From positions 97,690 to 161,689 of the forward strand of contig JAFTVE010000047.1 of assembly GCA_017465905.1 (NCBI GenBank): DNA of 64,000 nucleotides, written 5' to 3'. The notes beneath the pieces are model-generated. The model did no database searches. It worked only from the letters and a program-made list of their open reading frames with translations, and was not told the origin of the DNA. Positions 4,716 to 52,535 of the stretch are shown here, in pieces (the stretch's first letter is position 1; each line of letters starts with the position of its first letter). The DNA is from Bacteroidaceae bacterium. GTDB taxonomy: Bacteria; Bacteroidota; Bacteroidia; Bacteroidales; Bacteroidaceae. The translations under genes were made by a program, and so were the position numbers.

Positions 4716-4803
4716 TTACTGCTGCGCAAAGGCAAGGTTGCTGTTGCGCAAAGGTAACCTTGCTGTTGGGTAAGGGTAACGTTGCTGTTGCGCAGCGGTA
4801 AAT
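4716..4803. repeat. Tandem array 1: four copies of a 22-bp unit
   Basis: The copies start at 4716, 4738, 4760 and 4782, each exactly 22 bases. The second reads TTGCTGTTGCGCAAAGGTAA plus CC, and the centre TTGCGCAA is a palindrome. The others diverge by several bases. The second copy contains CAAAGGTA, which on the minus strand is a TACCTTTG minus-7-like box facing the SusC gene, but no minus-33 partner was found. The array lies at the centre of the inverted pair 4532-4606/4899-4973. Confidence 0.8.
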
Positions 4804-4898
4804 AAAAACACACGTCCGTTTCAGAGTGGAAGCATTATGAAATCGCTTTTAGAGATATCTTAACGGCATATAATGACTGCTGATAGGCCGATGTGGAC

Positions 4899-4973
4899 AA
4901 TCGTACGCAATGTCCGCCACTACAATATTCATATACAGAGGATTATCCTCTATTGGCGGACGGTGGCAGATAA
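4899..4973 (-). repeat. Right copy of the 75-bp inverted unit
   Basis: On the minus strand this reads TTATCTGCCACCGTCCGCCA, 34 bases, then TGGCGGACATTGCGTACGATT. It matches the copy at 4532-4606 in opposite orientation. The two copies bracket 292 bases that contain tandem array 1. The recombinase gene ends 285 bases to the right. Confidence 0.8.
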
Positions 4974-5257
4974 ATAACCTCCTTTATATATATACGCGTA
5001 CACGCGCACGCGAGATTACCTCTACTCACCATCATCAGTTCCAATTTTATAAATGTTTTGCATTTAAGAAGACTTGCTGGCTCGGCATAATCCCGCAAGC
5101 GGTTTCTGCACTCGCTACGCTGCGTCTTTCAATTCTCAATTGTCAATTATGATGCTCTGGCATCAAGATTCCTGGCTAACTCGGCAATGATTAAGCAAGC
5201 TTTCATTGCTCCTCGCAACGCTGCGGAATTGTCAATTAAACTTGTGTTATCCTTGTG

Positions 5258-6418
5258 CTACCGCTTTCGGCATTTTTTCAACTCCTTGATGATGGTTTGG
5301 TTGATGACCTCGCAGTAGTTCATCGTCGTCTTCACGTTCTTGTGCCCGAGCAGCCTCTGCACCGTAGTCACGTTTACCCCCTGCATGAGCAGCAGGGTAG
5401 CGTTGGTATGGCGGGCACTGTGGAAGGAGAAGTGCTTGCGTATGCCTGCATGTTGGGCGATGCTCTGCAGGCGCTTGTCGACGGTCGAGTTCGACGGTAG
5501 GCGAAAGAAAGCATCTACACCCTCAGCATATTTGTCGAGCAGCGCAAGCGCCTTGCCCTCAAACAGCAGGTCGATGGGCAGGCTGATGCTTGCGCCTGTC
5601 TTCTGACTTTCCGTGTTAATCCATGTATGATTGGCTCCACGCTGAATGTTGGCAGCGGTCAGCTGCACAAAATCGGAGTATCGCAACCCCGTGTAGCAGC
5701 AGAAGAGGAAGGCATCAAGTGCGTGTCGCAAATGCTGCTGCTTGGGTGGCACAGCGAGCCGCTCAAGTTTTTCCAGTTCAAATGGTGTCAGATGAGTATG
5801 AGCGAAAGGCCGATGACTGATGCGCCGTTTATGGAAGGGATTGTCCTCCTCGCTCATCAAGCCCCGCACGATGGCTGCGTTGATATAGATGCGTAGATGG
5901 GTAAGGTGTTTGCCCACGGTGTTCGTGTGATACCCACGTGATACCAGCCACGCTTCAAATTTGCTGATGAAACCAGGCGTCAGCTCATCGAAGGCCAGCT
6001 CCTCACAGAACTCTTTCAGCAGAAAATAAGTGGTATACCTGTTCTCCCGTGTACTCTCGCGTATACGCCCCTTCTCAATCTCACTGGCCATAAAGGGGAG
6101 GAACTGCGGTACGCTACCATTCTTGACCTCCTCTCGCAGTGCACGCAACGAAATGTTGCGTCCGCTTTTCCATAGCGCAATCTCCTTTCCTTCCAGTTCT
6201 GTCATGCGCTCGGCTATCATCCAATTCAGTTCTTCGGCGTGAGGATGACAGCAAATCTCGCGCTTCGCATCGTCCCATTGCGTGCTATATATATAAATAT
6301 GAGTAGACACATACATGCGGCAACGCTCCAGATATGCTTCTATCTGAACGAGTCCCTTGCCGTCTGATCTCAACTGCTTCTTGCGGTTAAATACCGCCCG
6401 ATACCTAATCTTTTTCAT
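5258..6418 (-). CDS. Tyrosine recombinase/integrase of the Bacteroidetes type
   Basis: The 386-residue protein has an arm-binding N-terminal domain (about 1-95), a SAM-like core-binding domain (about 100-195) and a catalytic domain. All catalytic residues are present: Arg246 in TGLRYSD, Lys273 in SQKTG, His333 and Arg336 in HSARH, His359 in LLGHK, and nucleophile Tyr368 in TTMNYCE. It should therefore be active. No tRNA, excision gene or phage gene accompanies it, so it is more like the stand-alone recombinases that invert nearby DNA in Bacteroides than the integrase of a full element. It lies between two diverging SusC/SusD loci and next to an inverted-repeat pair. That those repeats are its substrate is inference. 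Confidence 0.93.
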   Translation of the reverse strand: MKKIRYRAVFNRKKQLRSDGKGLVQIEAYLERCRMYVSTHIYIYSTQWDDAKREICCHPHAEELNWMIAERMTELEGKEIALWKSGRNISLRALREEVKNGSVPQFLPFMASEIEKGRIRESTRENRYTTYFLLKEFCEELAFDELTPGFISKFEAWLVSRGYHTNTVGKHLTHLRIYINAAIVRGLMSEEDNPFHKRRISHRPFAHTHLTPFELEKLERLAVPPKQQHLRHALDAFLFCCYTGLRYSDFVQLTAANIQRGANHTWINTESQKTGASISLPIDLLFEGKALALLDKYAEGVDAFFRLPSNSTVDKRLQSIAQHAGIRKHFSFHSARHTNATLLLMQGVNVTTVQRLLGHKNVKTTMNYCEVINQTIIKELKKCRKR

Positions 6419-6704
6419 GCTTATTCAATGTTAAATCCCTGTTAATAATATATTTTACAACATAGTTGTAGAAATTCCATCGCAACCCAACCTGTAGCAG
6501 AAAGAAACCGATTTACACTTTTGACTCGCAAAAAGGATGCCATTTTCACACCACCGATATCATTAAGACAATTCCTTTCCGAATCTTTGGACGTAACATA
6601 TTCATCAAAAAGGTTCACCGCGAATTGCTTTTTTACAACTTTTTTACCCTTTTCGATGTTAAAAAGCACTTTTTCGAAGCAAAAATGACGGTTTTTAAGA
6701 TTTT

Positions 6705-6738
6705 TTTGCGGTTTTCTCATGGAATTCTATTACTTTTG
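6705..6738 (+). promoter_or_regulatory. Bacteroidetes-type promoter for the second SusC/SusD operon
   Basis: TTTG at 6705-6708 and TACTTTTG at 6731-6738 fit the TTTG and TAnnTTTG elements with a 22-base spacer, slightly longer than usual. The SusC start codon lies 60 bases downstream, preceded by the A-rich stretch AAGAGAAAAATTT rather than a Shine-Dalgarno sequence. Confidence 0.6.
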
Positions 6739-6797
6739 CAGCTTCACAAGAGAGAATAGACAAATTAAACTATTGTTAAACTTTAAGAGAAAAATTT

Positions 6798-9700
6798 ATG
6801 AAAGGTAAATTGATGATGTTATTGGCCTGCCTCTTTATGGGTGCAAGCTTGGTAACTGCTCAAACCTCCAAGGTTACTGGCCTTGTGATTAGTGCCGAGG
6901 ATGGTGAGCCTGTGATTGGTGCCTCAGTCGCAGTAAAGGGCGTACCCACTTTGGGTGCCGTTACTGACCTTGATGGCAAGTTTGTAATTGAAAACCTTCC
7001 AAGTAGCGCGAAGACTTTGATTGTTTCTTATGTGGGTATGACCACACAGGAAGTGACCATTCATCCCTACGTAAAGGTGACCATGCAGTCTGATGACGAG
7101 GTATTGGAAGAGGTTGTGATTGCTGTGCCTTACGGTACTGTAAAGAAGGCAAACTTCTCGGGTTCTGCCGCTCAGGTAACTGGTGAGAAGTTGGCTGAGA
7201 TGCAGGTTGCCAACATTTCTAACGCACTGCAAGGATCTATCGCTGGTGTACAGACTACGTCTTCGTCTGGTACTCCGGGTTCAGGTTCAAGCATCTTGGT
7301 ACGTGGTATCGGTTCTATCAGCGCCGGTCAGAATCCCCTTATCGTTGTTGACGGTGTACCTTACGAGGGTTCATTGAACTCTATCCCTTCACAGGACATC
7401 GAGTCATTGACTGTATTGAAGGATGCTGCTGCCAACTCTATGTATGGTGCTCGTGGTGCCAACGGTGTAGTAATGGTAACAACTAAGAGTGGTGGCAACC
7501 GTCGTCCTCGCGTGAACTTCGATGCACGTTACGGTTTCAATACTCGTGGCGTAAAGCCCTACAACTCTGTGACAGATGCAGGTGAGTACTACGAGTTGCT
7601 GCACGAGTCTGTAACCAATCAGCTTGCTTCTGAGATGGGTTATATGGCCGCTTCGCAGTATGCCGCCGACAACTTGATTTCTGCTTATGCCAAGTATAAC
7701 ATTTTCAGAGGTGTTGCCAACAATGCTATTATCAATCCTTTGACAGGTAAGCTGACTGCTGAGGCTGCTGCCGCTGATCTCCTCTGGACTGACAATTGGA
7801 TGAACAACATGCAAGATGGTGTTCACCAAGAGTATAACGTAAGTGTATCGGGTGGTAATGACAGAACTTCTGCTTATATGTCTGCAGGTTATCTGTCTGA
7901 CGAGGGTATTGCTCCAGGTTCTGGATTCGACCGTATTTCTGTTCGTACAAAGATTGACCAGAAGATTTCTGACCGTATCAAGACTGGCATTAGCTTGTCA
8001 TACGCTCGCACCAATCGTAATTGGTTTGGTGATGAATCAAACAACTATTCAAATATCTTCATGTCATCTCAGATGATTGCCCCTATCTGTCCTGTATATC
8101 TGTACGATGAGAATGGTAACGTCATGATTGACGAGAAAACTGGTAACAAGATGTATGACTACGGTACAGAGCATGGCCGTGGCTATGCAGCACAATCTAA
8201 CCCCTATGCACAGGCTCAGGACGGTATCAATGATGATGTAACCGACAACATCAGTGCCCGTGGTTATTTCAACTGGGAGATTGTAAAGGATTTGACCGTG
8301 TCGGCCAACATGGCATATGACGTGTTCTCACAGAATCAGATTCAGTTCACAACTCCTATTGCTGGTGATGCTGCAGCTGTTAATGGCCGTGGTTACCGTT
8401 ATGCTACTCATACAGGCGTGTTCAATGTGAATGAATTGATTAACTGGACTCCTACATTCGGCCTCAGTGACTTGAACGTCATGTTGGGTCACGAGTCTAA
8501 CGAATACGACTATTCGTTGTTCTACGGTCACATGACCAACTTCGTGTCTCCCACCAACCCCGAATTCTCTAACGCTATTAACTATCAGGATATGAGTTCT
8601 TACTCATACGGCAAGCAGCGTGAGGGTTACTTCGGCAAGGTTGACTATGACTTCGACGACCGTTACTACTTGACCGCAAGCATTCGTCGCGATGCCTCTT
8701 CAATGTTCCATCCCGATGCACGTTGGGGTACCTTCTGGGCTGTTGGCGGTAGCTGGCGTATTTCTAAGGAGTCGTTTATGCGTGGCGCCTCTACTTGGTT
8801 GCAGGATGCTAAGGTAAAGGCTTCTTACGGTACACAGGGTAACGACAACCTATTGAACAGTTCTGGTTACGCATTGTACAAGACTTATACTGACCTCTAT
8901 TCTATCGCACGTGTTGACGGCAGTGCAGCTTTGTCTAAGTACCTTCGTGGAAACAAGGATCTCACATGGGAGAAGTCAAAAAACTTCAATGCTGGTGTCG
9001 AAGGTCGTCTATGGAATCGCGTAAACTTTGACGCTAACTTCTTCGTGAAGGAGACTACCGACATGTTGTTCTACAGTCCTCTGCCCGCATCACAGGGTAG
9101 TCCCTCAGGCATCTACAAGAATGAGATGGATATGAAGAACGTCGGTTTCGACTTCGAGTTGAGCGCTGACCTCTACCGTGCCGACAACGTATTGGTAACC
9201 ATGGCTGTTAATGGCCTTACCTATAAGAATGCGTTGACCAAGCTCCCCGACAGCAAGGGCACAGAGGGTTATCAGAATGGATACTACTTCCGAGAGCTCG
9301 GCAGTCCCCTCTACAACTGGTCGCTCTACGAATACGTTGGCGTAGATCCTCAGACTGGTCTTCCCCAATACAATGACTACTCTAATATCTACAAGCAGGT
9401 ACAGGCCGAGGATCCTGCTACTGGCGAACCCCTCTTCAATGAGGATGGTACTCCTGTGATGGTTGACACCGATGAAATTATTGGTGAGAAGGTAACCATA
9501 GTTAACTCTACTGAAGGCCTTAATGACCAAGACAAGCGTCACGATGGCAAGTCTTCTATCGCAGACTTCATCGGTGGTGTTTCACTCAGCGCTCAGGTTT
9601 ATGGCTTCGACGTAGCTGTTCAGACTGCATTCCAGCTCGGTGGTTATGTATACGATGGCACATACGCTTCATTGATGACCTCTGGTGCTAATGGTCAGAC

Positions 9701-10049: not shown

Positions 10050-10077
10050 TCAATTAACGTAAAAAGATAATAAGAAT

Positions 10078-11619: not shown

Positions 11620-11646
11620 TCATTAATTACTCAATAAAAGAAGAAT

Positions 11647-12486
11647 ATGAAAAAGTTAAATATCAAATTCTTATCACTTCTCACTCTCACAGCAGGCCTT
11701 CTGGCCAGCTGTGCTGATGAGGTGGTTGTAAAGGATGAGGCAGATAAGAATATCTTCCCCACATCTACTGTTTCTGTTTCTGACATGAAACTGGTAGAGA
11801 ATGGAAACAAAAGTATTGTAGTTTCTGCTGTTGTCGCCAACAGTGACACACTTAATGTGATGGAGTATGGTTTCGTTTACTCAACTAACGAAGATATGTC
11901 GGACCCTGCTGCAGTGAAGGTTGCAGTTAAGGAGGATGGCGTGATGAGCGCAAAGATTTCTATTGCTCCCAGCACTACCTATTATATAGCAGCTTATGCA
12001 TATGTTCGTGGTGCTGCAGTGCAAAGTGATGCTATTGCTGTAACTACAAACGATCCCGATCCTATCACTGTAGCTTCACTGAATGGCTCAACATATTATG
12101 CTACTGGTGTAGCTGATGCATGGGGAGATTCTTGGAACATTGAGACAACATTGGTTGCAGGTGAAGGTGACTCTATTTTCGTATGCAACCTTGATCCCTA
12201 TTTTGCAACCAATGGATTCGTGGCAGCAAATGGTTACAATGTCCTTGGCGGTGTTCTGGCAGTTTCAGAAGATGGTTCTTCTGCGACTATTACATGCTCT
12301 CCTGGACAGGCTGTTGGCTATCAGGATGTCGTGTTCTATGGTTACGATATGGAAACAGGAAACATCCTTGACATCGTTATTGAGATCTATAACTATGGTC
12401 AGTCTGCAGCGCTTAAGAACTGGACTGGTACATACTCTGGTGGATGGTGGTCAATGATAAGTCCTTGTGCATTGACACTTAAGTAA
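11647..12486 (+). CDS. SusE-position surface lipoprotein with a fibronectin-like domain
   Basis: The 279-residue product starts with a lipoprotein signal, ending LLASC. Residues about 45-135 resemble an Ig/FN3-like domain (VMEYGFVYSTNEDMSDPA and TTYYIAAYAYVRG). The C-terminal half (about 145-279) is a beta-rich domain I do not recognise, ending in a Gly/Trp-rich stretch. Proteins in this third operon position (SusE/SusF-like) usually are surface lipoproteins that help bind the substrate. That role is inferred from position, not from sequence similarity. A strong terminator follows. Confidence 0.75.
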   Translation: MKKLNIKFLSLLTLTAGLLASCADEVVVKDEADKNIFPTSTVSVSDMKLVENGNKSIVVSAVVANSDTLNVMEYGFVYSTNEDMSDPAAVKVAVKEDGVMSAKISIAPSTTYYIAAYAYVRGAAVQSDAIAVTTNDPDPITVASLNGSTYYATGVADAWGDSWNIETTLVAGEGDSIFVCNLDPYFATNGFVAANGYNVLGGVLAVSEDGSSATITCSPGQAVGYQDVVFYGYDMETGNILDIVIEIYNYGQSAALKNWTGTYSGGWWSMISPCALTLK

Positions 12487-13463: not shown

Positions 13464-13468
13464 GAGAA

Positions 13469-16847: not shown

Positions 16848-16944
16848 AATTCTGAATTCTGAATTCTGAGTATCCTTCCTCGATGCTGTTTTTAGGGTCG
16901 CGGAGCTTATTTTAGAATTCATAATTCAGAATTCATAATTCTTG
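16848..16944. repeat. GAATTC-type intercistronic inverted repeat, copy 1
   Basis: The left arm is a 9-base-step repeat (AATTCTGAATTCTGAATTC, from 16849) and the right arm its approximate reverse complement (AATTCATAATTCAGAATTC, 16916-16934). About 45 bases of unique sequence lie between. It fills the gap between ackA and the BASS transporter gene, ending right at the start codon region. Related copies: 17919, 25122, 54920 and 56050. Confidence 0.75.
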
Positions 16945-16949: not shown

Positions 16950-17921
16950 ATGTACGAACAACTACTAAATCTCGACCCCATAAAAATCAATTTCAGCAAG
17001 TCCGGTATGGATATGCTGAATATCGCCTTGGCCGTCGTGATGTACGGTGTAGCCCTCGGCATCAAGCCGGGCACCTTTGCCAAGGTGTTCCGCGAGCCCA
17101 AGTCTATCCTCGTGGGGCTTATCGGTCAATGGATACTCATTCCCTCGCTCACCTTCCTCCTGATTATCATCTTCCACAAGCATATCACTCCGATGGTGGC
17201 TATGGGTATGATTCTGGTGGGCTCTTGTCCGGGAGGCAACGTGTCGAACTTCATCACCTCCATCTCAAGGGGCAACCGCGAGCTCTCGGTATCGATGTCG
17301 GCCGTGACCACTACGGCGGCCATCGTCACCACACCGGCCAACTTTGCCATTTGGGGCAGCCTCTACGTGCGCTACCTCAATCGCCACGCGGCCGATGCAC
17401 TACAGACGCTCACCATACCCATCTGGGATATCTTCGTCACGGTGTTCATCCTGCTCGGCGTGCCCTTGGCATTGGGCGTTCTCACCACACACTATGCCCC
17501 GAAGGTAGCCAAGGCGCTCAACAAGCCCTTGCAGTACCTCTCCATTGTGGTGTTCCTCGCTATGGTGCTGATCTCGTTCTGGAACAACTTCGACATCTTC
17601 GTCAAGTACCTCAAGTGGATTGTGCTTATCGTAGCCATCCACAACGGACTGATTCTCTTCATGGGCTATTGGCTCGGTGAGCTCTCGGGCCTGCCGCGCC
17701 CCGACCGCCGCGCCATCACCATCGAGATGGGCATCCAGAACTCGGGTCTCGGCCTCATCCTCCTGTTCAACCCCAACATCTTCCCGCCCGAACTGCAGAA
17801 TGGCGGTATGCTCATCATCACCGCATGGTGGGGCATCTGGCACATCATCGCAGGCCTCACCGCCGCAGGCATCTTCCGCCTCCGCGACAGGTATAAGTGG
17901 AAAGAGGGTAAAGTTGATTAA
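16950..17921 (+). CDS. Bile acid:sodium symporter (BASS/SBF) family transporter
   Basis: The 323-residue protein is strongly hydrophobic with about ten predicted membrane segments. It contains family signatures: GLIGQWILIPSLTFLL, LVGSCPGGNVSNFITSISRG (the conserved crossover region), and GIQNSGLGLILLFNPNIFPP near residue 260. Members carry organic anions such as bile acids, pantoate or pyruvate with sodium across the inner membrane. The substrate here is not predictable. It follows ackA after a hairpin-forming repeat, so it may be part of the same transcript. Confidence 0.92.
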   Translation: MYEQLLNLDPIKINFSKSGMDMLNIALAVVMYGVALGIKPGTFAKVFREPKSILVGLIGQWILIPSLTFLLIIIFHKHITPMVAMGMILVGSCPGGNVSNFITSISRGNRELSVSMSAVTTTAAIVTTPANFAIWGSLYVRYLNRHAADALQTLTIPIWDIFVTVFILLGVPLALGVLTTHYAPKVAKALNKPLQYLSIVVFLAMVLISFWNNFDIFVKYLKWIVLIVAIHNGLILFMGYWLGELSGLPRPDRRAITIEMGIQNSGLGLILLFNPNIFPPELQNGGMLIITAWWGIWHIIAGLTAAGIFRLRDRYKWKEGKVD

Positions 17922-18048
17922 TTCTGAATTCTGAATTTTGAATTGTGACACTCCTTGTGAGAGAAAACATCGTGTGCTTAATTGTGTCATGAGCGCAAAA
18001 AACATCGCGTACTTAATTCAGAATTCAGAATTCAACATTCAGAATTCT
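17919..18048. repeat. GAATTC-type intercistronic inverted repeat, copy 2
   Basis: The left arm AATTCTGAATTCTGAATTTT begins at 17920. The right arm AATTCAGAATTCAGAATTC is at 18015-18033, extended to about 18048. The 70-base middle contains a further direct repeat, AAAACATCGTGTGCTTAATT and AAAACATCGCGTACTTAATT, starting at 17964 and 17998. It ends directly at the start of the acyltransferase gene. Confidence 0.75.
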
Positions 18049-22221: not shown

Positions 22222-22241
22222 GTTATTTATGAAATGCGCAA

Positions 22242-22323
22242 CATTTACGCAAAAGTTTACGCAAAAGTTGCACTTGTAACTATTATGTAAATCAGTGCGT
22301 AATGCACCAACTTGCGCAAATCT
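22242..22323 (+). repeat. Left copy of an 82-bp inverted unit
   Basis: Its outer 39 bases (from 22243) match the reverse complement of 22821-22859 with one difference. They contain two direct TTTACGCAAAAG iterons followed by GTTGCACTTG. The remaining part of the unit matches the other copy at roughly 60-80 per cent with no length change, ending in CTTGCGCAAATCT. Confidence 0.85.
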
Positions 22324-22495
22324 TTGTTTGGCTACTGTTTTTTGTTTATGGTTATGATGGATGAAACTCACAACTCATAACTCCTCTCTCCCGAAGTTTC
22401 CCCTCGTGGGACGGTAGTAGCCCCTGTCATGATGCACATGCTTCGATTTCTTGATTTTCATAGGCGATAGGGATTTTTCTAAGGTTTCAATTAAT

Positions 22496-22583
22496 TTTCT
22501 ATCTGCAGGCAGAATACTTTCTACTTGCAGATAGAATAGTTTCTATTTGCAATTAGAAACATTTCTATTCGCGAATAGAAACA
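22496..22583. repeat. Tandem array 2: four 22-bp palindromic copies
   Basis: Copies start at 22496, 22518, 22540 and 22562. The fourth contains the perfect palindrome TTTCTATTCGCGAATAGAAA. The third reads TTTCTATTTGCAATTAGAAA and the other two are looser. All keep TTTCTA at the left, a GC-containing centre and AGAA at the right. The array lies at the centre of the 82-bp inverted pair 22242-22323/22779-22860. Confidence 0.88.
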
Positions 22584-22639
22584 TTTTTCTCTTTGCCCAA
22601 CAAAGATGATCTTTTGTTCCATTTTTTTTTGCAAGCTAA

Positions 22640-22780
22640 TCTTGTTTAATAATCTGCAAGCGTACGGTCTGTTATCACCTGCGCACGCTCTGCGGCAAAG
22701 GCTACATCGAGCGCATCCGTCAAGGTGTATATCGCAAGGTGGTGAAGCGTGTGAACAGAAAAAACAGACCTGCAGCATAG
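22640..22780 (+). pseudogene. C-terminal fragment of a winged-helix type protein
   Basis: After an in-frame TAA at 22637-22639, a frame of 46 codons ending at the TAG on 22778-22780 encodes KRTVCYHLRTLCGKGYIER followed by IRQGVYRKVVKRVNRKNRP. This resembles the recognition helix and wing of a winged-helix DNA-binding domain with a basic tail. There is no N-terminal part and no start codon. It lies inside the inverted-repeat frame, its stop overlapping the right unit. The family is not recognised. Confidence 0.45.
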
Positions 22781-22860
22781 ATTTGCGCAAATTGTTGCGT
22801 TATACGCTGAAAATCATCGGAGTTGCAAGTGCAACTTTTGCGTAAACTTTTGCGTAAATA
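22779..22860 (-). repeat. Right copy of the 82-bp inverted unit
   Basis: Reads AGATTTGCGCAAATTGTTGC at its inner end and GTGCAACTTTTGCGTAAAC at its outer end, the inverse of 22242-22323. A third TTGCGTAAA iteron follows just outside at 22862-22870. Confidence 0.85.
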
Positions 22861-22909
22861 CTTGCGTAAATGATGCGAGTACAATAGGGTATAGGCGATA
22901 GTAAACAGA

Positions 22910-25121: not shown

Positions 25122-25230
25122 TTAATTCTGAATGCTGAATTCTCAATTATGAATTGCGTAGCCTATAGCGAGGGCTTATAGCGGCCTGGGCGCTTTGTTT
25201 TTTAGAATTCATAATTCAAAATTCAGAATT
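25122..25230. repeat. GAATTC-type intercistronic inverted repeat, copy 3
   Basis: Left arm TAATTCTGAATGCTGAATTC from 25123, right arm AGAATTCATAATTCAAAATT from 25204, with about 60 bases between. It separates the MIP18-like gene from the lpxH gene. Same architecture as the copies at 16848, 17919, 54920 and 56050. Confidence 0.7.
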
Positions 25231-25236: not shown

Positions 25237-25560
25237 TTACATAAATCCCAACTCTAATTTTGCCTCCTCGCTCATCATATCCTTGTCCCACTCGGGCTCG
25301 AATACGAGGTTGATGGTTGCCGATGTGATGCCCGTGATGCCCTCTACGCGCATGCGTACATCTTCCATTATGAAGTCCGCCGCAGGGCAGTTGGGGGCGG
25401 TGAGTGTCATGTCTACCTCGGCACGTCCGTCGTCCATCAGTTCGATACGGTAGATTAGTCCCAGGTCATATATGTTGACAGGGATCTCAGGGTCGTACAC
25501 TGTTTTCAGTGCTTCGATGATGCGTTCTTGCAACGCCAATTTTTCATTTTCGTTCATCAT
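25237..25560 (-). CDS. MIP18/DUF59 family protein, probable iron-sulfur cluster assembly factor
   Basis: Starting at the ATG on 25558-25560 the product has 107 residues (MMNENEKLALQERIIEALKT). It shows the DUF59 signature: VYDPEIPVNIYDLGLIYRIE and LTAPNCPAADFIMEDVRMRV, with the conserved Cys in APNCP. SufT/PaaD-like members help mature iron-sulfur proteins in the cytoplasm. The longer open frame to 25647 runs into a repeat element and is rejected. A TACCTTTG box ends about 8 bases before the start codon, so the mRNA may be nearly leaderless. The lpxH gene follows. Confidence 0.88.
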   Translation of the reverse strand: MMNENEKLALQERIIEALKTVYDPEIPVNIYDLGLIYRIELMDDGRAEVDMTLTAPNCPAADFIMEDVRMRVEGITGITSATINLVFEPEWDKDMMSEEAKLELGFM

Positions 25561-25568
25561 ATTGGGAC

Positions 25569-25640
25569 AAAGGTACGAATAAGCGAGCGAAATACAAAGT
25601 TTACTTTGTAATTTTTCAGCGAGCGCGAGTACCTTCTTGG
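25569..25640. repeat. 72-bp promoter-bearing hairpin repeat, copy R1
   Basis: Starts AAAGGTACGAATAAGCGAGC, has a central palindrome ACAAAGTTTACTTTGT and ends GAGTACCTTCTTGG, so inner and outer arms can pair. On the minus strand the left end gives TACCTTTG, a minus-7 box pointing at the MIP18-like gene. It is repeated with one difference at 25648-25719. Confidence 0.8.
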
Positions 25641-25647
25641 TTTTCAT

Positions 25648-25719
25648 AAAGGTACGAATAAGCGAGCGAAATACAAAGTTTACTTTGTAATTTTTCAGCG
25701 AGCACGAGTACCTTCTTGG
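25648..25719. repeat. 72-bp promoter-bearing hairpin repeat, copy R2
   Basis: A direct tandem copy of 25569-25640 (71 of 72 bases identical), separated by 7 bases. The near identity suggests a recent duplication. Confidence 0.8.
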
Positions 25720-25835
25720 TAAGGCATAATGCGAATCTGGTCGCTAATGTTGCCGTATTCACAAAGAAACTGCATTATCTATAAGATTTTTGTTGCAAAA
25801 TCCGTCAAAACGTCGCGTATATGAGGAAAAAACTG

Positions 25836-29820: not shown

Positions 29821-29829
29821 AGTGTATAG

Positions 29830-29957
29830 AATTTTTATTTTTGGCCTGGCAGAGTGCAGAGCTACATGGATTTTTGTACACCGGCTTGGCGCGAAGCCTG
29901 TACGATTTTACACTCCGAACAACTTCAATGCACTCTGCCAGGCCAAAAATGAAAATT
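29830..29957. repeat. 128-bp element with 29-bp inverted ends and an inner hairpin
   Basis: 29830-29858 and 29929-29957 are reverse complements with one difference (core TTTTTGGCCTGGCAGAGTGC). The 70-base middle contains a second hairpin, TGTACACCGGCTT against AAGCCTGTAC. Could be a MITE, a strong bidirectional terminator or a structured RNA. Confidence 0.75.
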
Positions 29958-30206
29958 CCTATATATAGGGTTTTCGAGCTTCTGACGTTTCGGATTTCGC
30001 CCCTGAGGATGCTGGGACGTGTTGAATTTCAGAGAATAACGGTTTCCTTTTTCAATTTCCAATTCTCAATTTTCAATATTCTTGCCAAGGGGTTGCCAAG
30101 GGGGGGTGGCAGAAAACTCGCAGATAGTACTAAGCACTATTTTGTTCGTACTAAGCACAAAATATTTTATACTTTATAGAAAATCTATTTACATGCATGC
30201 GTCGCT

Positions 30207-30294
30207 TGCGGTACATGTATGTACCGAACTTGGTACAACTGCACAAATCTTGCAACGCACCTGCAGAAAAAGTGCTATGCGCCTACAGAAAATA
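30207..30294. repeat. Tandem array 3: four diverged 22-bp copies
   Basis: Copies start at 30207, 30229, 30251 and 30273. Neighbouring copies share in-register blocks: GGTACA between the first two, CTGCA.AAA between the second and third, and CCT.CAGAAAA between the third and fourth. The gradual drift suggests an old array. Just before it, GTACTAAGCAC occurs twice 21 bases apart (30127 and 30148). Confidence 0.6.
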
Positions 30295-30375: not shown

Positions 30376-30463
30376 AATCAGAGCTGTCCGTTAGTTTTAT
30401 TGGATGGCTCCGATTTTTTTAACGGACGGCTCTGTCGGATTTATTGCAAGGCTCTGATTTTCT
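30376..30463. repeat. Tandem array 4: four 22-bp copies
   Basis: Copies start at 30376, 30398, 30420 and 30442. The last three keep GGCTCYG in the same register (GGCTC at 30406, 30428 and 30450, exactly 22 apart). The second and third have partial dyad symmetry around the GGCTC centre. It lies 81 bases after array 3. Confidence 0.7.
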
Positions 30464-43096: not shown

Positions 43097-43124
43097 ATGA
43101 AAGATTAGCCTATTATTTGCAAAC

Positions 43125-43212
43125 TTTTTCATAGGCGTGAAAAAATATCTTCACAGGTGCGAAAAACTTTTTTCATGCCTGTGAAAATTTATTTTCAAGC
43201 CTTCGAAAAATC
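43125..43212. repeat. Tandem array 5: four 22-bp palindromic copies
   Basis: Copies start at 43125, 43147, 43169 and 43191. The first has TTTTTCATAGGCGTGAAAAA and the third TTTTCATGCCTGTGAAAA: inverted TTTTCA/TGAAAA arms around a GC-rich 6-base centre. The second and fourth are looser (CTTCACAGGTGCGAAAA; TTTTCAAGCCTTCGAAAA). Lies between hisS and tex, 28 bases after the hisS stop codon. Confidence 0.88.
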
Positions 43213-45579: not shown

Positions 45580-48500
45580 ATGTATACAAGTATGGAATTA
45601 AAACGAATCCTTCAAAGGGCAAGCATGCTGCTTATGTTTGGCATGGTTGGCCTTTTTGCGTATGCTCAGAAGTCATTCACTTGTACCGTTGTCGATGAGT
45701 TTGGCGAACCGATGATTGGTGTGAGTGCGTTGGTTAAAGGCACTACGAGTGGCGAGATTAGTGATATGGACGGAATCATCCGTTTCCAGAGTCTCAAGTC
45801 AACGGATGTGCTGGAGATTTCGTACGTAGGCTTTGCTACACAGGAGGTTAAGGTTGGCAACAGAACCACAGTTAAGGTGGTGATGAAGGAAGACTCTGAA
45901 GCTCTGGACGAAGTGGTAGTAGTAGGTTATGGTACGATGAAGAAGAACGACCTTACTGGTTCTGTGGCCTCAATTGGAACAGACAAGCTGGTTGCTAAAG
46001 GTGCTCCTTCGGTGATGGAGAATCTTCAGGGAGCTGTTGCAGGTGTAAGTATTACACAGTCTTCGGGTCGTATCAATGATGATTTCAACATTGAGATTCG
46101 TGGTAAGTCCTCTCATAATCCTAATATGCAACCTTTGTATGTTGTGGACGGTGTTATCTGTGATGATATTGCTTTCTTGAATCAGCAGGACATTGAGCGC
46201 ATCGACATCTTGAAGGATGCATCTTCTACTGCAATCTACGGTTCACGTGCTACGGCAGGTGTTGTAATGGTGACAACCAAGAGTGGTGCACTTGTAGGTG
46301 AGAAGGTGAAGGGTACGAAATCAAATATCTCTTACGATGGCTACTATGGTGTGACCAATACAGCCCGTATGCCGGACTTTATGGATGGTCAGGAATTCTA
46401 TAACTATCGTTTCCTGAAGTTCCTCTCCTATGCAGAAGGTGGTGCTGCTACTGCACAGAGCGGCCGTCCCGCATATCAGATGGGTGCATATAACCAGATG
46501 GCTTTGCTGAACTCTACTACAGGCAACTATCGCTTGAAAGAGTTGTTGGCCAACAATGACACCTATGATTGGCCCTCTTTGGTAACACAATCGGGTAGAC
46601 AGCAGAACCATTATCTTGCCGTAAGCGGAAACTCAGAGAAGATGAAGTATCACATGGGCTTAGGCTTCGAAGATAACGTTGGTATCTACGAAGGTGATAG
46701 TCAGACGAAGGTGAGCTTCAAGGGTAGCGTCGAGGCTAATATCAATAAGTATGTGACTGGTGGTTTCTCTTTCAATCTGGCGAAGATGGACCGTAGCTAT
46801 GCCAATGACGTAGCCGTACAGAACGCTTATCGTATGAACCCCTTCATGCAACCTTACGATGCTGACGGTAATATTAACCGCAAGCCTGGTAACTATGAAG
46901 CTATGGGTTCGGACAATGGCTATCAGTTCTCTGATCAGCCCAGCCCTTTCCTTTATATCGACAACCAGACTCGTATGCGTGAGAGATGGCGTATGTTGGG
47001 TAATGCTTATATCCAAATCAAGCCGGTGAAGGGCTTGAATATCAAGAGTACCTTCTCGCCCAACTTCTCTTATACTCGTTTGGGACAGTTCGATGGTATT
47101 TTGCCAGAGGATGATGACTTCACCACCAACAAAGCACAGAAGACCGACTCACGTGCCTTTGACTGGACATGGGACAATATTATCAACTACAACACTACGA
47201 TTGCCGAAAAGCATGCTATTGACTTGATGGGATTGGCTTCGTTGACAGCTTCTAACTCGGAGAGAGATTATTTGCTTTATAATGGTGTACTTGATGGTAC
47301 TGATTGGTGGAACATGGGAACAGGCACCTATAATGCTGAGGAATCGACCAACAGCTATAGCGAGAAGAGTATGATATCATACGCATTGCGTGCCAACTAC
47401 TCGTATGCTGGCAAGTACATGTTGACTGGAACAATTCGCTGGGACGGCTCTTCAAAGTTCGCCGATGGTTATCGTTGGGGTAGCTTCCCCTCATTGGCTG
47501 CTGCATGGCGTATCTCTGAGGAGTCTTGGATGAAGCGCGAATGGCTCAGTAACTTGAAGTTGCGTGTAAGCTATGGTATGACTGGTAACAATACTCCGAT
47601 TGGCAACTATGACACTCAGCAGACTGTAGGTGGCCCTATCTATTATCCGTTCGGCTCGGTATATGCATCGGGCTTCTTCCCCAGTGGTGTGGTTGATACG
47701 GAGTTGAGTTGGGAGTCTTCTCGTGAGGTCAACTTGGGTCTTGACTTTGGCTTCTTCAATAACCGTATTACGGGTAATGTCGAATTGTACAACAAGAATT
47801 CATACGACTTGTTGTTTGATGTGGAGTTGCCGTTGGAGGCTGGTACAGACTCTAAAGGAAACTTGAAGACCATGTCTACAAACGTGGGCAAGGTGAATAA
47901 TAAGGGTCTTGAAATTCAGTTGACCACCGTGAATGTGGCTACCAAGGATTGGTATTGGGAAACTAGCTTCTCATTCTCTCGCAATATTAACACCTTGCTT
48001 GAGATTAATGGCTTGGGTGAGGACCTCCCAAGTTCAAGTCTCTTCATCAATAAACCCATCAACAATATCTACAACTATGATTGGGTAGGTATCGTAAGTG
48101 ACAAGGATATGGTAGTGCCTGACAATGAAATCGCGAAACTGAAGGGCTTGACTCCTGGTACAACCATGAAGGAGTATGAATACTACTATACCTGCTATGG
48201 CTGGACAGAGGGTCAGGTTATCATTGATGATGTGGACGGAAACGGTTCTATCGATGATAATGACAAGAAAGTGTTCGGTGCCGACCCGAAGTGGGTGGCC
48301 AGCTTCAATACTTCGTTAGGCTACAAGGGCTGGGACTTCTCGGCTTCACTCTATGCTAAGGTAGGTTATCATGTAAACTCGACCTTCTATCAAGAGTATA
48401 CGAACTTTAGCGACCGTGGTCGTTCTAAACTGAATGTCGACTACTACATTCCTGCAGGAACATTGATTGATTGCGATGGGGTTAATGCCGATGGTACCTA

Positions 48501-48843
48501 TATCAACCCCGTATATCAAGCAACCACACACTATGGTAACTATCCTTTCCCCAATAATGGTGGTGCCAATGCTGGTGTGGGCGACAGCCATTGGACTGGC
48601 GCAGCCAACAAGTTGGCCAATGTTTCTTACCTGAAGGTGAAGAATATGACCTTGGGTTATACACTTCCTAAGAATGCTTTGAAGAAGATTGGCGCAGAGC
48701 GAGTTCGTCTCTACTTGACCGTAACCAATCCGTTCGTATTTACCAATTACCGTGGTTTCGACCCCGAATGGGCTGCTGCCTCAGGCAAGTATGATGGCCC
48801 CAGCACAATCTCTTGGCAGTTGGGCGCAAACCTTAAGTTCTAA
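45580..48843 (+). CDS. SusC/RagA-family TonB-dependent outer-membrane receptor
   Basis: The start is set at the ATG on 45580 (MYTSMELKRILQRASMLLMF); the ATG at 45592 is equally possible and the GTG at 45544 is unlikely. The protein of 1087 residues has a signal peptide, a carboxypeptidase-regulatory-like domain (DEFGEPMIGVSALVKGTTSG), the TonB-box-like EALDEVVVVGYGTMKK, a plug with NMQPLYVVDGVICDD and YGSRATAGVVMVTTKSG, and a barrel ending GANLKF. It is more like glycan-type SusC proteins than the two receptors in the first 10 kb. SusD follows after 20 bases. Confidence 0.96.
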   Translation: MYTSMELKRILQRASMLLMFGMVGLFAYAQKSFTCTVVDEFGEPMIGVSALVKGTTSGEISDMDGIIRFQSLKSTDVLEISYVGFATQEVKVGNRTTVKVVMKEDSEALDEVVVVGYGTMKKNDLTGSVASIGTDKLVAKGAPSVMENLQGAVAGVSITQSSGRINDDFNIEIRGKSSHNPNMQPLYVVDGVICDDIAFLNQQDIERIDILKDASSTAIYGSRATAGVVMVTTKSGALVGEKVKGTKSNISYDGYYGVTNTARMPDFMDGQEFYNYRFLKFLSYAEGGAATAQSGRPAYQMGAYNQMALLNSTTGNYRLKELLANNDTYDWPSLVTQSGRQQNHYLAVSGNSEKMKYHMGLGFEDNVGIYEGDSQTKVSFKGSVEANINKYVTGGFSFNLAKMDRSYANDVAVQNAYRMNPFMQPYDADGNINRKPGNYEAMGSDNGYQFSDQPSPFLYIDNQTRMRERWRMLGNAYIQIKPVKGLNIKSTFSPNFSYTRLGQFDGILPEDDDFTTNKAQKTDSRAFDWTWDNIINYNTTIAEKHAIDLMGLASLTASNSERDYLLYNGVLDGTDWWNMGTGTYNAEESTNSYSEKSMISYALRANYSYAGKYMLTGTIRWDGSSKFADGYRWGSFPSLAAAWRISEESWMKREWLSNLKLRVSYGMTGNNTPIGNYDTQQTVGGPIYYPFGSVYASGFFPSGVVDTELSWESSREVNLGLDFGFFNNRITGNVELYNKNSYDLLFDVELPLEAGTDSKGNLKTMSTNVGKVNNKGLEIQLTTVNVATKDWYWETSFSFSRNINTLLEINGLGEDLPSSSLFINKPINNIYNYDWVGIVSDKDMVVPDNEIAKLKGLTPGTTMKEYEYYYTCYGWTEGQVIIDDVDGNGSIDDNDKKVFGADPKWVASFNTSLGYKGWDFSASLYAKVGYHVNSTFYQEYTNFSDRGRSKLNVDYYIPAGTLIDCDGVNADGTYINPVYQATTHYGNYPFPNNGGANAGVGDSHWTGAANKLANVSYLKVKNMTLGYTLPKNALKKIGAERVRLYLTVTNPFVFTNYRGFDPEWAAASGKYDGPSTISWQLGANLKF

Positions 48844-48863
48844 TCATTTAATACTATACGACA

Positions 48864-50687
48864 ATGAAAAAGACAATCTATATATCCGCATTGATGCTGA
48901 TGGCTGTATGCCTTTTCAGTAGTTGTGAAGATTTTCTGGAGGCTGACAACAAGAGTGCTGGTGGTCAGACTGCCGCTGATTATTTCAAGACCGAAGAGGG
49001 CTTGGCAGCATTTAGAGTGAATGCTTACTATTCATTGCAGAACATGTCAACATGGACAGACATCTATACAGATGGTACGGACCTCTATGTTCCTAGCCGT
49101 GGTAAAACCCCAACTGCATTCCAATATCAGACTGTTACTGCTGAAACTGGTGACGTGAAGAATTTGTTTGCAGCTTGCTTCCAGGTTATCAATAATGCCA
49201 ATGGCTTGCTTTTCTATGGAGGTGATAAGTATGCTGCTGATGCCAAGTTCTTGCGTGCTTATGGCTACTACATGTTGACTCAACACTTCGGCTCTGTGTA
49301 TTATTCAACTGAATACATCAACAACGCTAATCGTGAGTACCCTCGTACCGACTTGAAGACGATTTATGACAATACAATTGCTGACTTGCAATCTATTGTT
49401 GATGATGCTAATGTTGCTGAGATTACTCATGATGGCACCGTCAATCGTCGCGCAGCTGCCGCTTTGTTGGCCAAGGTTGCTTTGGCTGCAGGCTGGGATT
49501 TGCAGACCACATTGGGTGATGAGGCTAAAGGTACATTTACGAAGGGTGATGACTTGAGCTATTTTACATTGGCTGCAAGTGCGGCTGAGACTGCTATTAA
49601 GGATATTGCTTTGACTCAGAGCTTCGAGGAGAAGTGGTCTGCAGCCAATGAAGACACCAATCCCGAAACATTCTTTGCAGTGCAATATGACCGTGCTGGC
49701 TATCCTGGCGATGTGAATACTGGTGGTCATGGCCTTCAGAATGATTGGGGCTCTTACTACGGTGCTCAAGATGCCAATGGTTTGAAGGTAAGTAGCTCAG
49801 TGAAGGTGCCTTCATATAAGTCTTTGTTCCTTTGGGGCAAAGGTGATGAACGTTATGCTGCTACTTATATGACAACTTTCTATAACTATGATGGCAAGAG
49901 TGAGAATTGGCCTGCAACAGGATACTATGCTTACTATAGCAGCAGCAACCGTGATGCGCTCCCCATTGCACTTTATTATGCACCTTATTATGTAACAAAG
50001 TCAGAGTTTGAATCATATCTTAAGGCTAATAAAGAACGTTTTGCTCAGGGTGAGTATACGAATGCTCCCAAGGCATACTTGATGGCCGGTACCGTATTGA
50101 AGTATGAGTTCAATGCTGATGGCTCTTACAAGTCACCCTCATCACTTGCCTATACTGACTTGACATTGGCTAACGAGCTTAACTTCACTCCTTGTGTGAA
50201 GAAGTGGGATGACCCGCAGACAATCTTCTCACCGGGTAACGTTTCTAACTGTTATCGCGACATTGTGTTGCTCCATGCTAGTGATATCTATCTCGTAGCT
50301 GCGGAGGCTTATTATATGGCTGGTGACAAGACCAATTTCTGGAATAAGCTCAATGCGGTACGTACTCGTGCCAAGGCTCCGGCTTTGAATGCGATCGGTG
50401 ACTATGATGTAGACTACACAGCGGCTTCTGCTGCCAATGAGGATGTCCAGTACATCGACCTTATTCTGGATGAGCGCGCTCGCGAGCTCTATGCTGAGAA
50501 TCAGCGTTGGGCCGACCTTCGTCGTACTCGTCAGCTGATTCGTTACAACATCGCATACAACTCTTATATTGATGCGTTGGAGAATATGCAGAATGCACGC
50601 GGCGAAACTCGTTGGTATCGCCCCATACCTTCTGCAGAGATGGGCTCTAATACCGCTGAAGGTCTGGTACAGAACCCTGGTTATTAA
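48864..50687 (+). CDS. SusD/RagB-family outer-membrane lipoprotein
   Basis: The 607-residue protein has a lipoprotein signal ending LFSSC (Cys20) followed by EDFLEADNKSAGGQ, the usual SusD N-terminus. The middle has TPR-like helices (KFLRAYGYYMLTQHFGSVYY) and the C-terminus the typical IDLILDERARELYAENQRWA, then DLRRTRQLI. It should pair with the SusC at 45580-48843. It is longer than average for the family (500-550), with extra loops likely forming the ligand pocket. A small lipoprotein gene follows 30 bases on. Confidence 0.95.
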   Translation: MKKTIYISALMLMAVCLFSSCEDFLEADNKSAGGQTAADYFKTEEGLAAFRVNAYYSLQNMSTWTDIYTDGTDLYVPSRGKTPTAFQYQTVTAETGDVKNLFAACFQVINNANGLLFYGGDKYAADAKFLRAYGYYMLTQHFGSVYYSTEYINNANREYPRTDLKTIYDNTIADLQSIVDDANVAEITHDGTVNRRAAAALLAKVALAAGWDLQTTLGDEAKGTFTKGDDLSYFTLAASAAETAIKDIALTQSFEEKWSAANEDTNPETFFAVQYDRAGYPGDVNTGGHGLQNDWGSYYGAQDANGLKVSSSVKVPSYKSLFLWGKGDERYAATYMTTFYNYDGKSENWPATGYYAYYSSSNRDALPIALYYAPYYVTKSEFESYLKANKERFAQGEYTNAPKAYLMAGTVLKYEFNADGSYKSPSSLAYTDLTLANELNFTPCVKKWDDPQTIFSPGNVSNCYRDIVLLHASDIYLVAAEAYYMAGDKTNFWNKLNAVRTRAKAPALNAIGDYDVDYTAASAANEDVQYIDLILDERARELYAENQRWADLRRTRQLIRYNIAYNSYIDALENMQNARGETRWYRPIPSAEMGSNTAEGLVQNPGY

Positions 50688-50717
50688 TATATGTATAATA
50701 TATAAAGGTATATGACA

Positions 50718-51185
50718 ATGAAAAAGATTTTATATAGCGCATGTATGATACTTGCTGTATGTGCAGCTTTTGTATCATGCCAGAAAGATGTGGTAACAGG
50801 TCATAATCCAGCAGATAACCTTTATCCTCAGAAGGATGTGGTAGGTGTTTATGAAGGACAATGGTGTAGAACTTTAGATGGCGTGACTGACACGATTGAT
50901 GGTTCTTTGACGTTGGTGGCTGTTGATACTGCTGCTTTCCAAGTTGAAGTTTCTGTCTTGTGTGAAAGTATTTCCTTGACTGGAACTAGTGTGGCAAATA
51001 TAGCTCAAGAAGGATCGCATGGTTATGTTTTCTACAACATGTCTTCCTCCAATGGTCTGGGTGCCGATAATTTCCGTGGCCGTGTGCAAGATGATGTGGC
51101 AACCATTGATTTTAAGAAGTCTATGCGAGCTGGTCGCTTTGAGAAGATATTTTCTTTCCACTTTTCGGGCATAAAGGCTGAATGA
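50718..51185 (+). CDS. Small lipoprotein of the third SusC/SusD operon
   Basis: The 155-residue product (start at the ATG on 50718; one at 50712 is possible) has a lipoprotein signal ending AAFVSC, then about 130 residues of beta-rich sequence (VVGVYEGQWCRTLDGVTDTI; FQVEVSVLCESISLTGTSVA). It looks like a small calycin-like or lipocalin-like barrel as seen in other Bacteroidales lipoproteins, but I do not recognise a named family. Position behind susD suggests help in substrate binding. A MITE-like element follows directly. Confidence 0.7.
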   Translation: MKKILYSACMILAVCAAFVSCQKDVVTGHNPADNLYPQKDVVGVYEGQWCRTLDGVTDTIDGSLTLVAVDTAAFQVEVSVLCESISLTGTSVANIAQEGSHGYVFYNMSSSNGLGADNFRGRVQDDVATIDFKKSMRAGRFEKIFSFHFSGIKAE

Positions 51186-51200
51186 TTTTGTAAGTATAGT

Positions 51201-51350
51201 GAGGGCGTGTCAAAGTAGATTTATTCTATCATTTTGTCATTTCGACAGAGCGAGGCGACGAGAAATCTCTAATGCTGAGGCCGAGATCCCTCCCTTTGGC
51301 TCGGGATGACATTACACTTTGACAATTGGCTTCTATTTTGACACACCCTC
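51201..51350. mobile_element. 150-bp MITE-like element, copy 2
   Basis: Ends GAGGGCGTGTCAAAGTA and TATTTTGACACACCCTC are imperfect inverted repeats. It aligns end to end without gaps to 28580-28729, with identical interior blocks (ATTTTGTCATTTCGACAGAG; CGACGAGAAATCTC). It separates the small lipoprotein gene from the next secreted-protein gene. Confidence 0.78.
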
Positions 51351-51404
51351 TTAAAAAGAGTTTTTTATTATAATTTTTAGTATTAACAATTTAAATGTAA
51401 TGTT

Positions 51405-52316
51405 ATGAAGAAACAATTACTTTTCGTTGCTGCTATTGCAGCTGGTATGTGTGCTACAGCACAGGATTACGTAAAGGTTGATGCAGCTGGCTTGGGCGTT
51501 GGCGGTGATGAAGCCGTAGCTCTTGCTGCAGGAACTGAAGTTGGTCGTACCGAGAGCTTTATCATGAGAACTGCTTTTGATGATACTTATAAGGTACAGG
51601 ATGTTAAGGCTAATGACTGCAACTTGTGGGTATTTGACGGTACCGAAATTACTACAGACAATGGCTTTCAGGGCCAGACCAACCCCAAGGATGCAAATGG
51701 CGATAATCCTGCAATCCAAACTCCTCCTACTGCTCCCGTTTCAGGTGCTGTGATTGAGATTGAAGCTCTTAAGGATGGCTATGTGTATGTTTGGGGAAAG
51801 CTCTCTTCACACAAGAATTACATGGTGTCTGAGAATAACCAACCTATGGGTTACCAGTTGGTGATGCAGACTGCTACTTTGGGTAAGTTGGATATCACAG
51901 TTAAGGGCTCTGATGAGTACAATTATGTATATGAACCTATTGCATGGCCTGAGGTGATCTTTACAGGCAATCCTGAGAGCGCTGTAAAGGAGAATGGTAT
52001 GGGTGTTATCAAGTTCCCCGTATTCACAGGCTGCAAGTATTTGGTAAACGCTACAGGTTCTAAGATTACTGCTGGTGGTGCATGGTTTGATGCAGAAGGT
52101 GATGTTAATATCGGAATTAAGAGCACTGAAACGGGTGTTAGCTATGCTCTCTATGGCGCTGGTGTAGGCATCCAGAATGCTGAGGTTGCTAATGTGGTTG
52201 CTGAGGAGTTCTTCACCGTTGCTGGCCAGAAGGCTTCTGCTGCTGCAACTGGTATCGTTCTCGTGAAGAAGACCTTCGCTGACGGTTCAGTTAAGACTGT
52301 TAAGGTTATCCGCTAA
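51405..52316 (+). CDS. Secreted protein with a sorting-domain-like C-terminus
   Basis: The 303-residue protein has a signal peptide (about 1-19, ends CATAQ) and a beta-rich middle with no recognised domain (VIEIEALKDGYVYVWGKLSS; VIFTGNPESAVKENGMGVIK). The last 40 residues (EFFTVAGQKASAAATGIVLV, KKTFADGSVKTVKVIR) resemble the Bacteroidetes C-terminal sorting form, also seen in the protein at 37708-41502. It may be secreted to the surface by type IX secretion. A terminator follows. It is probably linked to the SusC/SusD operon by position only. Confidence 0.7.
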   Translation: MKKQLLFVAAIAAGMCATAQDYVKVDAAGLGVGGDEAVALAAGTEVGRTESFIMRTAFDDTYKVQDVKANDCNLWVFDGTEITTDNGFQGQTNPKDANGDNPAIQTPPTAPVSGAVIEIEALKDGYVYVWGKLSSHKNYMVSENNQPMGYQLVMQTATLGKLDITVKGSDEYNYVYEPIAWPEVIFTGNPESAVKENGMGVIKFPVFTGCKYLVNATGSKITAGGAWFDAEGDVNIGIKSTETGVSYALYGAGVGIQNAEVANVVAEEFFTVAGQKASAAATGIVLVKKTFADGSVKTVKVIR

Positions 52317-52346
52317 TAATTAGGAACAATCCTTGTGATTGATACA

Positions 52347-52372
52347 GGGGATGCGTCGTTGGGCGCATCCCC
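52347..52372 (+). terminator. Terminator of the secreted-protein gene
   Basis: GGGGATGCG and CGCATCCCC pair perfectly around an 8-base loop, followed by TTTCTTTTTTTT. Confidence 0.88.
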
Positions 52373-52382
52373 TTTCTTTTTT

Positions 52383-52535
52383 TTGTAGGCGTTCGGTAAG
52401 TTTTTTGTAGACGGAAGCTGCTGCAATTACAAAATGCTCTTCGTAAAACTAAAACAAAAGCACTGATTTGCTATTCAAAGCTTATGAATATTAAATCAAA
52501 GGCACTGAATATTAAAACAGAGCTTATGATTTAAG
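52383..52535. repeat. Tandem array 6: quasi-periodic 21-22-bp copies
   Basis: TTGTAG repeats at 52383 and 52405 (22 apart) start a run continuing at 52427 and 52449. From 52452 four 21-bp copies are clear (52452, 52473, 52494 and 52515), alternating AAAAGCACTGAT and AAAGCTTATGAAT type centres. The second has dyad symmetry around AAGCTT. It lies between a terminator and the end of the next leftward gene. Confidence 0.65.

Follow-up and report, generated by a model that had tools for sequence, protein, structure and literature searches.

Several described systems come close to the elements treated here. BrickBuilt, a miniature inverted-repeat transposable element (MITE) of Porphyromonas gingivalis, carries 1 to 22.8 copies of one 23-nt sequence and 12-nt terminal repeats, and the paper describing it also mentions unlocated 22-nt repeats in strain W83 (PMC4596501). 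Our subject is a class of intergenic arrays, mostly with four copies of a palindromic 21–22-bp unit, found in a 64,000-bp stretch of a Bacteroidaceae genome (assembly GCA_017465905.1, contig JAFTVE010000047.1, positions 97,690 to 161,689; the whole stretch is called the window hereafter), together with the HU-HIG genes (PF18291, HU/IHF superfamily) that follow many of them. The arrays resemble BrickBuilt as intergenic tandem repeats of similar length within inverted-repeat-bounded elements without a transposase, but differ by their variety of sequences, their four copies of a dyad unit, and their linked gene (PMC4596501). Since array 1 of the window lies between inverted repeats, BrickBuilt or another known MITE was considered at first and rejected because neither the repeat length nor the terminal repeats fit, the period being 21–22 instead of 23 nt and the inverted repeats differing from the GAGACC-type 12-nt terminal repeats. 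The idea of MITE-like remnants survived and is taken up below.

Repetitive extragenic palindromes (REP) and bacterial interspersed mosaic elements (BIME) with their REP-associated tyrosine transposases (RAYT) share intergenic palindromic units, regular spacing, and both orientations with the arrays, but are high-copy palindromes tied to RAYT, whereas we found many low-copy families tied to HU-HIG. Autoregulated operators with several dimer sites are represented by ArgR boxes and toxin-antitoxin operators. Like these, the arrays place palindromes at the promoter of the regulator itself, spaced by about two helical turns; they differ in that the protein is of the HU type, the sites number four, and each paralog has its private sequence.

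For the HU-HIG family, we know of no cis site and no function; Burroughs et al. are said to have reported, in Cell Cycle in 2017, its expansion in Bacteroidetes and to have predicted a role against invading elements. The Pfam entry PF18291 gives HU fused to a winged helix-turn-helix (wHTH), an Ig, or a glycine-rich motif, and the partner proteins found here are members that score over the curated cut-off. The protein clade is already known, and what is new are the four-site arrays and their co-variation with the HU-HIG protein; no description of the arrays was found in the open-access literature, in searches not all of which asked about arrays.

HU-HIG genes and the arrays upstream of them

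The window is part of contig C30 of the source genome (G000, about 80% complete); G001 and so on denote other genomes and L numbers individual loci. Because two arrays were located directly before HU-type genes, HU-HIG was searched for, which provided the linked protein family sought after the first-pass annotation. The source genome yielded 20 HU-HIG rows, 17 of them over the curated Pfam cut-off, and all four typed proteins reached the curated score. HU-DNA_bdg (PF14848) gave three matches in this genome, one over its cut-off, all overlapping HU-HIG rows. Each of the nine intact long HU-HIG genes of G000 (207–217 aa) carries an upstream array, eight with period 22 and one with period 21.

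For a wider sample, 106 genes were scored from G000, from members of its genus and family, and from further families of the order, namely 78 long ones (HU domain and winged helix, about 200–225 aa, from 23 genomes) and 28 short ones (<185 aa). Loci outside G000 were the best-scoring ones and 40 chosen from the matches listed, mostly by open-frame length, while seven of the 20 G000 rows were left unscored (L221 and L224–L229; contig ends, partial genes, stops, or not of the long type). With a criterion of z of at least 5 inside 400 bp upstream of the gene, an array was detected for 69 of the 78 long genes, with period 22 in 58 and period 21 in 11, compared to 1 of 40 downstream regions with enough DNA and 1 of 390 block-shuffled upstream regions. 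The same criterion was passed by 29 of 506 upstream regions of G000 genes, a number not checked for overlap with already listed arrays. The long gene L264, with too little upstream DNA for this scoring, passed a separate one at z 7.5. Short HU genes revealed an upstream signal in six of 28 cases, including L222, in fact a long gene whose start was miscalled; a downstream period-21/22 signal was also noted for six of 26 short genes.

HU-HIG proteins displayed an HU fold followed by a C-terminal wHTH. In the predicted structure of the L219 protein (predicted local distance difference test, pLDDT, 89), an HU domain and a C-terminal winged helix were recognised, and 4fmr, a putative DNA-binding protein of Bacteroides vulgatus, was the top row in both structure comparisons with respect to the N-terminal part, tied with 6n2l in one of them.

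The HU-linked arrays are uniform in form. In a leave-one-out comparison, which depends less on the detector than a direct count, the identity of 15-bp unit cores was 0.67–0.70 for units 1–4 and 0.31–0.32 just outside; the copy number therefore clusters at four, as the first-pass annotation had claimed. Counted directly, with a result partly built in by the detector, exactly four units were present in 60 of 69 HU-linked and 15 of 26 dispersed arrays (the rest five or six). A dyad score above 0.56, the highest value of 400 random positions, was obtained for 33 of 39 non-redundant arrays. Array similarity followed protein identity across the 69 arrays (Mantel r 0.74; highest of 1000 permutations 0.12), the median array score below 35% protein identity was 7–8 (shuffled median 7), and in 65 of 69 cases the period was shared with the nearest protein neighbour of <85% identity. 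Among 17 hand-picked pairs of similar HU-HIG genes (18 were given, one without array columns), pooled substitutions were lower in the dyad cores (69/810, 8.5%) than in linkers (112/673, 16.6%) and flanks (277/1905, 14.5%). A TAnnTTTG box, which we take to be the Bacteroidetes -7 element, was located at most 60 bp before the array in 39 of the 69 genes, at 10–20 bp in 28 of these, whereas 44 of 1380 windows taken at random contained it. L234 and L238 have box and array in the opposite order.

Based on this association and co-variation, the arrays are probably four-site DNA addresses of HU-HIG proteins, each with a sequence private to its paralog, which would serve autorepression; binding as well as autorepression are what we infer from the comparisons. 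One palindromic unit would be the site of one HU-HIG dimer, and four units at 21–22 bp would place four dimers on one face of the helix, an arrangement which the first-pass annotation had already proposed and which the two-turn period with dyad units fits. Often positioned 10–20 bp past the box, the array would overlie the beginning of the transcript, where autorepression could naturally take place, and in the simplest mechanism enough protein would fill the four sites and block early transcription. Since array and protein specificity would change together, the layout would stay while the sequence drifts.

Arrays of the window and dispersed families

Arrays in the window were scored as matches in 66 columns at lag 22 or 63 columns at lag 21, with 100 dinucleotide shuffles of the window as control; the highest lag-22 score among these shuffles was 37/66.

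4716..4803, no strand: array 1, 4 x 22 bp, dyad TTGCGCAA, family F9; lag-22 51/66
22496..22583, no strand: array 2, 4 x 22 bp, unit TTCTA-N8-TAGAA, family F10; lag-22 52/66
30207..30294, no strand: array 3 as claimed, one good palindrome GGTACATGTATGTACC, weak repeat, not established; lag-22 37/66
30376..30463, no strand: array 4, family F2 (GGACGGCTCTGAT), first unit inverted; lag-22 38/66
43121..43211, no strand: array 5, 4 x 22 bp, unit TTTTCAYAGGYGTGAAAA, family F1; lag-22 46/66
52449..52532, no strand: array 6, 4 x 21 bp, family F13; lag-21 36/63

The first-pass annotation had listed six arrays with 21–22-bp units, the first five as four 22-bp units spanning 88 bp each. This layout stood for the arrays at 4716, 22496, and 43125, which were far above the shuffle maximum (51, 52, and 46 vs. 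37), but not for all of the first five. The array at 30376 barely exceeded the maximum (38 vs. 37) and is backed by a sister array with the same unit at L098:4008, while 30207 tied with it and is by itself not above chance. The region 52383–52535 lacks a lag-22 signal (28/66) and belongs to the class by way of a period-21 array at about 52449–52532, modestly above the lag-21 shuffle maximum (36 vs. 34 of 63). That unit sequences differ completely between arrays proved inexact, as the arrays group into multi-locus families.

Array 5 is situated between hisS and a gene for an S1-domain protein, presumably tex. Judged by the tex protein, the nearest named relatives are the sheep-rectum Bacteroidaceae metagenome-assembled genomes RGIG6166 (96% identity) and RGIG6335 (93%); as the spacer is not kept in these two, a conserved spacer upstream of tex was rejected.

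A census of 798 kb of G000 over periods 16–30 with a low-complexity filter, part of this sample having been picked since one family had matches there, resulted in 29 arrays of period 22, six of period 21, and three at all other periods together. Before filtering, the first 414 kb, of which the window makes up 64 kb, revealed 14 lag-22 peaks, three inside the window and 11 in the remaining 350 kb, while two shuffles gave none; lag-22 similarity thus exceeds the shuffled expectation. Dyad scores were above 0.56 in 23 of the 29 period-22 arrays but not in the other six. All 31 listed arrays (30207 included) were intergenic by a crude gene call, and the 25 array spacers with both neighbours were tandem in 18, divergent in four, and convergent in three cases. 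A regulon by position was rejected, given the lack of preference for divergent spacers (4/25). Arrays of this period with other sequences were also present in related genera, and at a few loci of named Bacteroidales that had been selected on different grounds.

Family F1 (TTTTCAYAGGYGTGAAAA) had 36 strand-wise unit matches with at most three mismatches in G000, compared to three for a reversed-pattern control. It occurs at 12 loci in G000 and across the genus, adjoins an F5 array at several loci, and precedes unrelated genes such as tex, an efflux gene, and one resembling fabG (identified by eye). In the tolC-acrA spacer, G000, G002, and G013 carry an F1 array, while G007, G004, and others do not; because these spacers differ widely, no clean empty site indicating F1 transposition was found there, six minus-strand loci (L105, L107, L110, L112–L114) and the partial L108 not having been parsed. 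HU-CCDC81 (PF18174) was tried as a partner of F1 and had no match in G000. Some F1 arrays showed short matches of 21–52 bp to HU-HIG upstream regions, which were discounted.

Several further repeats were noted. Near arrays of families F3 and F11, another period-21 family (AGTACTTTGTACGAGCAGAAT) occurs at 30127–30168 of the window, L099:19127, and L100:747. In G005 (L206–L209), one species of the genus, eight lag-21 peaks and no period-22 peak were present in 80 kb, mostly with GAAGAAGGAA-type units and dyad scores of 0.31–0.50. A dispersed repeat at 29829–29958 carries a 30-bp inverted repeat of 97% (GGCCTGGCAGAGTGCA), and similar words lie near array clusters in L096, L099, L100, L130, and L148 (GGGTGGCAGTGGCAG in others). 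Separate from the 22-bp class, a 7-bp unit AATTCTG/AATTCAG forms short arrays in many spacers, in the window at 16848–16941, 17920–18047, 25124–25230, 54923–55001, and 56050–56125, and a 79-bp unit is repeated in tandem at 25569–25720 (98% matches), overlapping the open reading frame 25237–25647. Scans of the window for tRNAs and against Rfam (gathering score) gave no match.

A number of observations weigh against the arrays being HU-HIG addresses. Nine of the 78 long genes missed the criterion, among them three with a visible weak array (L266, L270, L282), three with a miscalled start (L272, L302, L303), and three showing no upstream array (L283, L324, L325). No TAnnTTTG box was found within 60 bp before 30 of the 69 HU-linked arrays, dyad cores changed more than flanks in four of the 17 gene pairs, and ordinary HU and IHF do not, to our knowledge, bind such palindromes. 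The HU-HIG family is numerous in the genus (5 to 28 matches, counting short forms, in each of 19/19 genomes at E<=1e-8) and patchy across the order, with strong matches (E<=1e-12) in only nine of 60 sampled genomes, G000 included; arrays of this period also occur at loci not screened for HU-HIG genes. Among 107 HU-HIG upstream regions, no convincing partner was identified for families F1–F5 and F11, nor any for the window arrays at 43125, 30376, and 30207, and in the lists for G001 and G013, no HU-HIG place adjoins one of F1, the smallest distance within a contig being 5.8 kb. Of the two options in the first-pass annotation, a partner protein for each array or local production by copying, the first is supported for the class and for 4716, 22496, and 52449, but not for these three. 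Finally, the promoter box is missing from the dispersed arrays (found on 2 of 58 sides), which are therefore not operators built in the same way.

Arrays without an HU-HIG gene may generally be trans sites, sinks, or remnants. For F6 and F13, such arrays occur in the same genome as the HU-HIG gene of their family, with 79–89% similarity over 84–103 bp, and are probably further sites, on which the protein would act in trans. Alternatively, F1 and the other orphan families could be sites of other dimeric regulators with the same four-site layout, which we regard as a real though not the expected outcome. Period and dyads are the same in these families in spite of the missing partner, and the unrelated genes downstream of F1 would agree with such regulators; yet the HU-HIG genes examined are only part of those in the genus, and as G000 is only about 80% complete, the partner may be missing from the assembly.

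Inverted-repeat units and decayed HU-HIG loci

In the source genome, a pair of inverted repeats (20–127 bp) encloses the HU-HIG gene in seven of nine cases, compared to one of 89 control genes. Several HU-HIG genes are accompanied by a divergent gene, which domain scans of four of them identified as DUF3987 in L237 and as VapE-like (PF05272) in L231, L232, and L236. Most long HU-HIG genes of G000, several together with their divergent gene, form units between inverted repeats, and decay of such a unit can leave the inverted repeats and the array behind. Both the array at 4716 and that at 22496 are flanked by inverted repeats within units depleted of genes.

4503..4609, no strand: left inverted repeat of array 1; 4503–4552 pairs with 4954–5003, 4582–4609 with 4896–4923
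4893..5003, no strand: right inverted repeat of array 1; 4893–4969 is 77–78% to the DNA directly following the HU-HIG gene in L252 and L264
22235..22351, no strand: left inverted repeat of the array-2 unit; 93% to the one next to HU-HIG in L237
22377..22461, minus strand: HU-HIG gene remnant; first and last codons left, middle gone
22673..22870, no strand: DUF3987 3' remnant and right inverted repeat of the array-2 unit; 90% to L237:7259–7456
L237:5762–7366, divergent from HU-HIG: DUF3987 gene, by domain scan

The array-2 unit is bounded by a 101-nt inverted repeat (22243–22343/22759–22859, 78%), and three of its segments (22235–22351, 22417–22627, and 22673–22870) are 88–93% identical to HU-HIG/DUF3987 units, both genes being reduced to their ends. 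Here, 22417–22627 corresponds to the array and 5' end of the HU-HIG gene in L235 (89%) and 22494–22627 to L237 (90%). At the same locus in G001 (G001:C21, L341), the HU-HIG gene is intact with 220 aa, and the flanking DNA is 90–92% identical. Judged by these alignments, the array at 22496 is a decayed HU-HIG unit, which in the manner of a MITE has kept terminal inverted repeats common with the larger unit and lost the internal genes. Array 1 displayed 79–80% similarity over 109–112 bp to arrays upstream of HU-HIG genes L252 (G001), L253 (G011), and L264 (G004), and 4583–4605 in its left inverted repeat also matches L252, a locus with an HU-HIG gene; the array at 4716 is probably a decayed unit as well. 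The region of array 6 (52428–52544) is 81–82% similar to period-21 arrays upstream of HU-HIG genes L234 and L315. Nearby genes include one for a tyrosine recombinase (5258–6418), adjoining the array-1 unit, and one for an EcoRI-type adenine methyltransferase (PF13651; 20520–21611), near the array-2 unit.

These units also bear on a reading of the arrays as assembly sites of a mobile element, where a recombinase or its HU-type helper would build a complex on four palindromes, HU-HIG being an architectural transposition helper and not a repressor. Enclosure by inverted repeats, the gene-poor units of arrays 1 and 2 that keep inverted repeats and array, and highly similar HU-HIG units at different places (L232/L233, 94–95%; L235/L237, 87%) speak for it. 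On the other side, the array stands beside the HU-HIG start, often by the promoter box, and not at the element ends, the 52200–52700 spacer showed no inverted repeat and the one at 43125 just a single 23-nt pair that overlaps the array, inspection by eye around 22235–22870 revealed no target duplication, and no transposase was recognised in the four scanned partner genes nor by eye in other HU-HIG neighbours. We thus consider this reading unlikely, and four-site addresses of HU-HIG proteins are the reading preferred.

Further alternatives and implications

A role as RNA, in which HU-HIG transcripts would carry a 5' leader of four hairpins, appears very improbable. As the array starts shortly past the TAnnTTTG box in 39 of the 69 genes, it would be transcribed, but an RNA hairpin would favour G-T pairs, and no such wobble excess was found among failed dyad pairs on the transcript strand (G-T 77, A-C 86 among 1092 pairs); the mismatches are strand-symmetric and hence point to a DNA site. 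No wobble-biased covariation on the transcript strand, as of a structured leader, was thus detected, many units are perfect palindromes without a loop, and the Rfam scan of the window was negative. Partnerless minisatellites arising by local slippage, in agreement with the plasticity of spacers in the genus such as tolC-acrA, hardly come into question for the HU-linked arrays, since slippage alone gives neither dyads nor fixed four copies, a fixed 21–22 period, or a link to one gene family, and are conceivable for weak cases such as 30207.

With the arrays read as private addresses of HU-HIG proteins, a wider proposal, which we offer as speculation and rather doubt at present, is that in some Bacteroidales lineages a diversifying set of HU-type proteins reads such four-site addresses and uses them as a lineage-specific self-mark. 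Pairs of paralog and array would keep arising, spread as inverted-repeat-bounded units, and act in the competition between genome and mobile elements, like KRAB zinc fingers in vertebrates. For the family itself, the DNA upstream of an HU-HIG paralog would already show the site predicted for it. If the arrays are indeed such addresses, the HU fold, commonly regarded as almost blind to sequence, would have given rise to a whole family of regulators with sequence specificity, and a striking class of intergenic repeats would be accounted for.

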